Shown piece by piece: positions 49,401 to 52,400 of a stretch of DNA of 64,000 bases. The notes beneath the pieces were generated by a model. That model worked only from the letters and a program-made list of their open reading frames with translations. It had not been told where the DNA came from and ran no database searches. Position 1 is the stretch's first letter. The number at the start of each line of letters is the position of its first letter. Source of the DNA: Ascidia mentula (lineage: Eukaryota > Chordata > Ascidiacea > Phlebobranchia > Ascidiidae); assembly GCA_947561715.1 (NCBI GenBank), contig OX387202.1:14645001-14709000 (forward strand), given 5' to 3'. A program made the translations under genes and the position numbers.

Positions 49401-52400
49401 TCAAAATTGAGGATATTCGTTAAAGCAGTACTCGGTTTGATTAATTACAGTTTAACTTAACATAACATTGGTCCAATAATACAGTCACGTCGTTGAGACG
49501 CCATACAGCGTAACACAGAAGTCATCTCTACCTCAAAGCAGCTTCTTTGTCAAGTAGTTTGGCTCTGGTTTGTACATCAGCTTCCACTGAACTCAAAACC
49601 GTTTGTAGACTGGGGTTAGCTCCCGCCGCCCACTTGAGGCGCTGTTGTATGGACGTGTTCTGCGACATCGCCTTTTCCTGTTGGATTATAGGATTTTACT
49701 TTGGTTGTGTGCATTTTTTTGTCTGACTAGGCAAGTTTATCTGACACGTTGTTGCAAAAATAAGTCTCGAAAAACCACTAATATCCAGTAGTTTTACTAC
49801 TTTACGCCAAAATAGCAGTGAAACTTGAACAAAACGTAGGCAAAGCGCAGTAAGCAAACAAAACCTAGATTTAAATCGCATTTTTGTTCAAATTTTTACA
49901 AAACTGTTCGAATTCCATTATCAGTTACCCCCGCCAAAACGCTGAACAAATTTACAGGTGAACCTTAACTTCGCGGCAAATTTTCAAGAACCAACTAACC
50001 TTAACTTGTTGAAACATGGCCTCTAGGTGGCGCAAAGTGCCCATGCGCTTGTTTAAGTCGTTGATGACGTCACGTCGCCGTGGCAACACGAAAGTGGTGT
50101 TGCTTCCTGCTTCCAATAGATCTTCGTGCAACCATTGGAATCTTGTAACCTGTCACGAAAATCTCGCTTTTAAGCCTTTTCAAATCGATGTATTGAAAAT
50201 CATGTTATTGCTGTTTGCAGCGTTATGAGGTTTTAAGTTGGTCTTTCAGGAGCCTATTTCGTCACAAACCATTCTTTGCGCTTACGAGGGCGCCAATGAC
50301 TATTTCGTTTTAATGAAACAAGATTTTCAATATTAATTTCGTATACAAAATTTAATATCCAATAAACTCATAATAATGAAGGTCGATTATTTAACGGCCG
50401 AAAAGTCAATCATCTAAATAGTTTTTTTTCCAGAAAAGCTTGTACGGTTATTAAACATAATGCTGGCAGCGTCAGCAACAAATGGTTAAAAGAGGTCAAA
50501 ATGTAATATTCTCTAATACAAAAACAGCATAAATAAACTTTTTACCTGTAATTGTGCTCTCTGCAAACTTGATCTGGTGGCGACAATGTTGGCGTCCAAC
50601 CTCTGAGCTCGATCAAATTCCTTCCAAGCTCGGTTGAATTGGTAGACCAACATCGATGGCTTTGCAAGGAAGCTCTGAACAAAAAATATTATGCACTGAT
50701 GAGACCTTTTAGGTCGAAACAGTGGCCATCTGTCTGCAGCTTACACAAAAAATATTATGTCAAAATCTCCAGTGGGTTTACAACTGGAGTTGGCTAACTG
50801 TGTATTTCTTCAAATGGTAGTAGTTTGGGAGATTGCAATATTGCCAATCAACTTTGCTACGATTGGAATTGATGTCCAAGAATAGCATTTATTTGTTTTC
50901 GAAACAGAACACATGAAAGGACATTGGGTTAACATACCTGGGTGTATTTGGCTTCGACCGCAGCTTTGCAAATGTCCTCGGATGCCACTAGAGGCGCATT
51001 CGGTCTCACGAAAGTAGAAAGTTCGACATTGTGGAGCTCGATGTAACTGCACGTTGCGTAGCCCAGCACCTGATCGAAAATCGTGTTAAAAAACGATAAA
51101 AAAGAAAATTAACACATCATAATGTTGTTAGGTATTAAAAACACATGAATTGTAACCGTGTTCATTATATCACATCGGGGTCACCAGTACGGACGTTCAA
51201 ATGTGATGATGAGTATGCAGAACGCACTTCTTCATATTTTACATACGGTAAATAAGGTAGTAATTTTTAAGGGTAAAATTGGACCTTTGTGCAAAAGTTA
51301 ACAAGCAACAGTGTACATCAATATAAAAACATAGTGTTTTTTATTATTGTTTTTCACTTACCTCTGATGGAATACCGATGAGAAGTTCTTGGACAAAGTG
51401 GGATATGAAGTGTTTGATCGGTTTGGCGAGTCGGTCTTCGGAGTAGAGCGACTTGCTTCCTATGTAGTGGTGACCTGTGATAATAGGAAGGTCATGGCTG
51501 ACGTCAATCACATTAAACCTCGTTTAATCCGGATATTTGCTCAATTCGGATAAAGTTGAGGGTACAATTTATGTCTAATGCTTTTCTTAACAAAAGCATA
51601 CGTGTAATCCGGTTAAATTAATCCGGATTAACCGAAGTTGATTGTATACTTAAACCAATGATTTTCAACCTGAACTTTCAACGAGGGGCATTTATTTCAT
51701 GTAAGAAACTAAGCTTTAGACAGGAAACACAGAGAAACGTTTTCAAAACCAGTAAGTCCAAGTTCAGCATGAATTCTAGTGCGGGTATGGAACAGTTACC
51801 TGTGATGCTGTTTTTGGCGGTGGACGACATTCGATCGACGAGGAAAGCGCGCGCGTTCGATTGACACAGAACGAAGAAATCGTGCATGGCTTGAACTTGT
51901 TTGATGAACATGATTGCTTGAAGGGCCTCCACTGAACCTGTGTTAAAATATGGTTACGATTTGATTATTTTGAAGTTAAAAACTAGAGAAAAGAATCTCT
52001 TAGAGGGCCTTTGATACCGAATATTTATTGAATAACTCTTTGGTTACTATAGTATATGTTATAAGGTCCACTGCCTTCGAATCAAATTACCCGAATTTAA
52101 ACGCGGGATTCGAATACAACGATTCACAATCAGCCATTTTGTATAAAAAATAAATATCACACCCGACAAATTCTTCAGTTTCTGCAGTTGCAAAGGTTCG
52201 GCGAGCACGTCGACGTAGTTCCACTCATGCGGAACGTGCAATCGTTCTCGTTCGATCAAAAGCGACGTGAATTCCTTCTGTACGGAACAGAAGAGACCGT
52301 CGAATGCTTGGAGCAACATTTGTCCTGCCGTGAGTCTCTGTTCATCTGATCGTTTCTAATGGACGAGAAAAGTTATTTTTACTGTCTGGTAAGCGATGGT

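Follow-up and report, generated by a model that had tools for sequence, protein, structure and literature searches.

A 51-bp hammerhead insert in Ascidia mentula, probably a truncated copy of a retrozyme family whose ends suggest movement by Penelope-type elements

A 51-bp insert in a 64,000-nucleotide stretch of the Ascidia mentula genome (the window) is, with high probability, a strongly 5'-truncated copy of a non-autonomous family of type I hammerhead retrozymes that is moved in the manner of Penelope elements. That it arose by retro-insertion is very likely. The ends of the family suggest Penelope-type elements as the copying machinery, and these ends, with their Penelope tail signature, are the surprising part; the insert itself is an ascidian animal retrozyme, a known kind. 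The enzyme that moves animal retrozymes has so far been inferred from shared features and co-occurrence, according to the accessible text of PMC7229834 and PMC7761336.

Two identical 15-mers, ACAAAAAATATTATG, at positions 50679-50693 and 50745-50759 of the window and 66 bp apart from start to start, enclose 51 bp with a complete hammerhead core, as the sequence-only reading had described. These two are the only exact copies of ACAAAAAATATTATG in the window, and matches with 3 mismatches occur at 22 further places. The parts of the locus are as follows.

50679..50693, plus strand: left flanking direct repeat; the duplication proper is probably 50681-50693 (AAAAAATATTATG), with the GAAC target motif just before it
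50692..50695, plus strand: 5' side of stem I, TGCA, shortened; pairs with 50735-50738, two of its bases coming from the target duplication
50694..50744, plus strand: 51-bp insert, a probable 5'-truncated copy of the hammerhead (retrozyme) unit of about 286 bp, unit positions about 198-252
50696..50719, plus strand: hammerhead core as read, with CTGATGA at 50696-50702, stem II GACCTTTTAGGTC at 50703-50715, and GAAA at 50716-50719
50720-50722 and 50730-50732, plus strand: stem III as read, CAG/CTG, 3 bp
within 50720..50734, plus strand: U-C before the expected cleavage site, a GTC triplet ending at 50734
50745..50759, plus strand: right flanking direct repeat

The duplication had been taken to be 15 bp long. 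The identity of the 15-mers stands, but the target duplication (TSD) itself is probably 12-13 bp, since the GAAC on the left fits the family target (AAC, then the TSD, then GTT) and since the 3' end of the element reads ..CTTACAC, so that the AC that opens the right 15-mer can be the element's own. In the 13-bp reading, GAAC is followed directly by AAAAAATATTATG, and the preceding AC is common to the target and the 3' end of the element. The right flank, TCAAAA, is without the GTT half of the target motif, which counts against the Penelope reading. The 13- and 15-bp readings predict the same empty allele, a single GAACAAAAAATATTATGTCAAAA. Comparison with such an empty site had been proposed as a check, and when both flanks were joined into a 30-mer and searched for with up to 3 mismatches allowed, the insert's own assembly, the single one available, gave no match, as is expected if that assembly carries one haplotype. 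The other concern raised there, that the flanking 15-mers belong to a longer repeat unit, is not borne out for the unit taken as reference, to which their best ungapped match is 10 of 15 positions. The 51 bases of the insert agree with the family unit except for a CTTACAC/CTTATACAC variant present in many copies, and this near-identity makes a recent insertion plausible.

By sequence the insert is a type I hammerhead for which self-cleavage is predicted: CUGAUGA, GAAA, a UH before the cut, three helices, and an open helix I are all found at 50692-50738. Helix I has only 4 bp in the 51-bp copy and is longer in the family unit, and the minimum-energy fold of the truncated copy favors a competing CACUG/CAGUG stem. 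Folding revealed no unusually stable structure at the priming sites described below (z, -0.78) or at the hammerhead (z, -0.64 and 0.00). The predicted self-cleavage site, between 50734 and 50735, lies within the insert and is uncut; the ribozyme therefore did not make the ends of the insert, and the proposal of an RNA that had cut itself out is not supported. The core and the order of the stems are the same as in Rfam RF03152 (RAGATH-1) and RF00008, whereas the scores are far under the gathering cutoffs: 401 bases gave RAGATH-1 at 21.2 bits (gathering, 56.3; E, 0.33) and Hammerhead_3 at 18.1 bits (gathering, 48.5; E, 0.34). Whole-window Rfam searches did not report the insert's hammerhead and returned nothing at gathering score in the window. 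Thus, no curated family covers the retrozyme hammerhead at its own threshold.

Close exact repeats (at least 15 bp, spacing of 30 to 150 bp) were counted in the window and in 60 first-order Markov simulations of it. With eight rows in the real window versus none in the 60 simulations, the real sequence is richer in close repeats than the simulation. One of the eight is the pair that flanks the 51-bp insert, four lie within tandem arrays (54881; 62231, 62256, and 62372), and three are other close repeats (21587; 52422 and 52451, both with a spacing of 117). The arrays are two tandem copies of a 42-bp unit with 92% matches (54881-54964) and a minisatellite of about 15 copies of 22-bp units (62204-62541). 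Outside tandem arrays, an exact 16-bp repeat with a spacing of 35 is found at 21587-21637 (21587/21622), and exact repeats of 18 and 16 bp with a spacing of 117 are found at 52422-52586 (52422/52539 and 52451/52568).

A search for other copies in the genome had been proposed, and they are abundant. When the 196-Mb, 79-contig assembly was searched with a 25-base hammerhead core, matches at up to 3 mismatches were found at 3,527 places (1800 + 1727) versus 0 for the reversed pattern; hence, the core is no chance motif. Part of the family consists of tandem units of 284 to 286 bp, with five full units in a row at one locus (L016). Among 12 units from five loci, mean identity was higher within insertions (0.994; 16 pairs) than between them (0.978; 50 pairs), as expected if each insertion stems from a single RNA, whether circular or multimeric, or from a single homogenized array. 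The unit has a GC content of 47% and, at about 286 bp, is too short to encode an enzyme.

Copies from 88 core loci and the window were aligned to one unit, in which the core occupies positions 200-224 and the expected cleavage site is 238/239; nine Penelope loci in the same alignment run yielded no retrozyme copy. L001 to L068 come from 100 listed exact-core places, all on contig C1, with nine beyond 23.94 Mb left out, and L069 to L088 are 20 of 100 listed places chosen for a short-looking 3' end, which biases them toward the end called site A below. Seven copies were dropped before counting, six for scoring below 50 bits and one for lying at the edge of its locus, and removal of L005, L062, and L080 as duplicates reduced 99 copies to 96, among which are likely segmental duplicates (L009 to L011 and L056 to L059) and copies of other subfamilies. 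L061 and L062 (G000:C1:21538000-21549500), 7.5 kb apart, have a common target duplication and flank and contain different parts of the unit; they may represent one locus that was duplicated and then altered internally.

Target duplications, scored as length minus 3 per mismatch with a net threshold of at least 10, were found in 52 of the 96 copies versus 5 of 474 mispaired-flank controls, evidence that favors the earlier suggestion of a retroposed insert copied by the machinery of another element. The 44 copies without a duplication of this quality count against the Penelope reading. Duplication length peaks at 12 bp (range, 10 to 21 bp). The triplet before the duplication is AAC in 22 of 52 copies and the triplet after it is GTT in 12 of 52; if a small shift is allowed, these numbers rise to 32 and 28, versus 12% and 10% of 468 nearby windows. 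With AAC before and GTT after, the target is roughly symmetric, each strand being cut preferably just before GTT.

The lengths of the 52 TSD-bearing inserts rise gradually from 51 to 1823 bp, and seven direct inserts with TSDs are shorter than 100 bp (51, 67, 72, 83, 87, 88, and 89 bp). The 51-bp insert is the shortest of all; instead of the minimal stand-alone element for which it had been taken, it is the short extreme of a continuous range in a tandem family with units of about 286 bp. These lengths bear on an explanation that we regard as quite improbable, namely, a distinct hammerhead-only element, an RNA of about 53 to 60 nt whose own 5' end is the stem I base and which is mobilized as such. 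Its attraction is that 5' ends are somewhat overrepresented at that base (unit positions 192-198), where 7 of 47 direct copies begin (P, 0.00025 for that window and 0.022 for any 7-nt window). The seven are L003, L006, L007, L037, L054, L065, and the 51-bp insert, and those counted as short copies are all of these except L054. Yet 5' ends are spread along the whole unit, as lengths are along the whole range, three of the seven (L003, L054, and L065) extend into the tail or into another unit, and shorter inserts could hardly be detected by a search that required the core, 51 bp being near its detection floor. The stem I excess is only suggestive and could be a transcription start, a reverse transcriptase stop, or chance. 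Because it is weak (scan P, 0.022) and lengths are gradual, a separate hammerhead-only family is not needed.

The 47 copies in the 5'-end test are the 62 direct copies minus 15. Eight of the latter have inverted pieces (L022, L024, L075, L009 to L011, L031, and L060); the rest are two other window copies, the first copy of L002, the short copy of L049, L059, and two of the L056/L057 set. L022 was moved out of the stem I starters when an inverted tailed piece was found, as were L024 and L075.

At the other end, the family has two fixed sites. Site A (median, 252) is the end of GCTTATACACAA (243-254), and site B (median, 283), 31 nt away, is the end of GCTTATCAT (278-286); the windows applied (A, 245-258; B, 277-286 or 1-2) were set after the ends had been inspected. 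The right ends of 25 TSD-bearing direct copies, including L031 with its shorter inverted match, fall at A in 18, at B in 6, and elsewhere in 1 (L021, position 274), an A:B ratio of 18:6 that leans to A because part of the sample was picked for short 3' ends. L021, which ends at neither site, counts against the Penelope reading. The 51-bp insert (50694..50744) ends at site A, and the tail is absent. All 27 inverted copies with a duplication pair an A end with a B end (P, 6.9e-8 under random pairing of the same ends), and assignment to the nearest site gives the same 27. Among all 33 inverted copies, the window rule yields 21 clear A/B pairs, 12 copies with one end outside, and no same-site pair, and the nearest-site rule yields 32 A/B pairs and 1 B/B pair (L027, without a duplication), the last of which counts against the Penelope reading. 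Three additional inverted copies, L022, L024, and L075, also look A/B. Of the 104 ends of TSD-bearing copies, one falls 3 nt or less from the self-cleavage site (L086, whose 5' end is at 237), and direct copies that start upstream of this site, including the 51-bp insert, run through it uncut.

Outward-facing hammerheads at both ends of the inverted copies would suit a DNA-level event, either insertion of a DNA transposon whose terminal inverted repeats are hammerheads or recombination between tandem repeats that left a remnant. We find this barely credible: the two ends of a copy differ (A and B), the position of the 5' end along the unit is variable, duplication lengths scatter around 12-14 bp, and an inverted end is absent from direct copies.

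The same signature is present in Penelope copies of the same genome. A GIY-YIG profile search gave at least 121 matches, with 150 of 382 candidates scored, several of them in open reading frames (ORFs) of 700 to 890 amino acids in tandem runs or inverted pairs. Three Penelope C-terminal frames match GIY-YIG; a reverse transcriptase piece taken from the C67 array itself matches nothing in Pfam or PDB, and its homologues carry PF00078, PF28514, and PF26215. For the comparison, 3' regions were taken from three families, and four insertions were examined at their two outer ends. In all four, which come from the three families, the head is inverted, the duplication measures 12-13 bp (12 bp in the C72 pair), and only one end has an extension. 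The extensions are 34, 44, 42, and 33 nt, each ambiguous by a few bases, and those of 42 and 44 nt exceed the published 30-40, which counts against the Penelope reading. Minimal hammerhead-like motifs, CTGANGA..GAAA, occur in the Penelope 3' regions. Among the end regions of the three families compared, no Penelope family with the retrozyme priming-site sequence was found, the single 17-base match to the unit being at chance level, and this likewise counts against the Penelope reading. L027, the L086 5' end, and the C72 tail length do not change our confidence in that reading, because they do not touch the 27 fixed-end copies. The C67 array (G000:C67:6134028-6146916; L089 and L096 to L098) consists of Penelope-like ORFs in tandem, with an inverted head; four of the five ORFs stay open for 885-892 codons, and these are possibly young copies.

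Mobilization of the family by a LINE, through target-primed reverse transcription with twin priming, is unlikely. RVT_1 domains are abundant in the genome: the search aimed at Penelope reverse transcriptases, with 150 of 1254 candidates scored, returned other reverse transcriptases, and the listed domains are taken to be mostly LINE-type, which counts against the Penelope reading. LINEs also give TSDs of this size and inverted 5' parts. However, LINE twin priming is not expected to place the second end at one fixed site, and the two sites 31 nt apart, one per end, match the Penelope copies of this genome. The paired sites also match published Penelope behavior in the accessible parts of PMC11167929 and PMC3846280.

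In vitro, an Anolis Penelope protein cuts and extends both target strands, and reverse transcription is initiated within the RNA at two neighboring sites, the sequence separating them corresponding to the optional 30-40 bp genomic tail (PMC11167929, accessible text). There the authors call the tail a signature unique to Penelope elements, report uncleaved RNA as the main substrate, and predict a dimer for the Anolis protein. A 31-bp tail on one of inverted pLTRs is described in the accessible part of PMC3846280. The retrozyme family resembles these systems in the inverted head, the tandem arrangement, the AT-rich targets, the optional 31-bp (30-40) extension at one inverted end, and a hammerhead near the priming site; its two 3' ends, 31 nt apart, fall within the 30-40 nt of the Penelope tail, with the extension at one inverted end. 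It differs in being a unit of about 286 bp without a reverse transcriptase or endonuclease gene and in a hammerhead with a stem III, whereas the Penelope-like elements here have the minimal CTGANGA..GAAA. Penelope members carry their own ORF for reverse transcriptase and GIY-YIG, and the unit of about 286 bp does not; having no enzymes, the retrozyme can be no more than a user.

Cervera and de la Pena (2020; PMC7229834) defined animal retrozymes and, in the text accessible to us, named Penelope elements as strong candidate movers. With their animal non-LTR retrozymes the ascidian family has in common the type I hammerhead, tandem units (about 170-400 bp), the lack of its own enzyme, a GC content below 50%, duplications above 4 bp, and Penelope in the same genome. 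In contrast, this is an ascidian family, its unit GC content of 47% is above the 45% of a figure in that paper, and it includes many single and 5'-truncated copies. While a review (PMC7761336, accessible portion) states that animal retrozymes show no motif telling which retroelement moves them, the ends of the ascidian family show two fixed priming sites. Nine type I hammerhead loci are given for another ascidian, Didemnum vexillum, in the accessible part of PMC8704543. Among titles and abstract openings, mainly of papers outside subscription, we found no report of a link between retrozymes and the Penelope tail, and none of the same link among those on hammerheads in ascidians or tunicates.

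In the mechanism that we propose, tandem units would be transcribed, and RNA with an uncut hammerhead would be bound by a Penelope-like GIY-YIG/reverse transcriptase protein. An AT-rich target would be nicked on both strands about 12-13 bp apart, often beside GTT, as the duplications and the flank motif suggest, and reverse transcription would begin inside the RNA at either of two fixed positions separated by about 31 nt, as the ends suggest. Priming by both strands, one site each, would give a copy with an inverted first half; if only one cDNA were retained, the copy would be direct and its 5' end variable. The 51-bp insert would be a direct copy primed at site A, with a stop after about 53 nt. 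A bound dimer offering one site per strand would account for the A/B pairing. Here we infer the enzyme to be Penelope's, the template to be RNA, and the form of that RNA.

More broadly, we lean toward the view that animal retrozymes are satellites of Penelope: the protein, probably a dimer, would sit on uncut RNA, and the two nicked strands would prime at fixed sites 31 nt apart, one each, so that nearly all inverted copies are tailed at one end and the genome records the priming geometry. The unit may descend from a Penelope pLTR minus the ORF. Fixed unequal ends would make the mover readable from the genome and testable in vitro with a Penelope protein and a short RNA, and the family copies would be a large natural sample of Penelope reverse transcription initiation on both strands. 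In the 51-bp insert very little was copied, yet a complete hammerhead core was left; such truncation may explain some of the lone "orphan" hammerheads in animal genomes.

Beside the insert, the minus strand reads CATAATATTTTTTGTTCAG and then an open frame, apparently a 3' splice site of a gene on that strand. The minus strand also encodes PI3/PI4-kinase and FATC domains, at 58.0-58.3 and 46.5-46.8 kb, respectively, and by motif this PIKK gene resembles SMG1. About 17 nt separate the start of the insert from the apparent 3' splice site, which lies downstream (50675-50700); the polypyrimidine tract (CATAATATTTTTTGTTCAG, minus strand) is doubled by the target duplication, and an intact copy stays beside the exon. 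The window contains two further hammerhead features.

57302..57382, minus strand: hammerhead of a related second subfamily, with a loop ..TTACAAGGTC.. and a stem III with GTGTACACC
58396..58625, no strand assigned: diverged family copy with an inverted first half, hammerheads at both ends facing outward

A clear target duplication was not found for the copy at 58396..58625. The second subfamily, which differs in its upstream part and has GTGTACAC as stem-loop III, also occurs at L002 (1000-1240) and L064 (3700-4001), and its form in the window is rare, with 8 matching places when up to 3 mismatches are allowed. Locus L031 encodes a POLD2-like protein with 82% identity to that of Phallusia mammillata, 66% to Ciona, 62% to Clavelina, and 56% to Styela.
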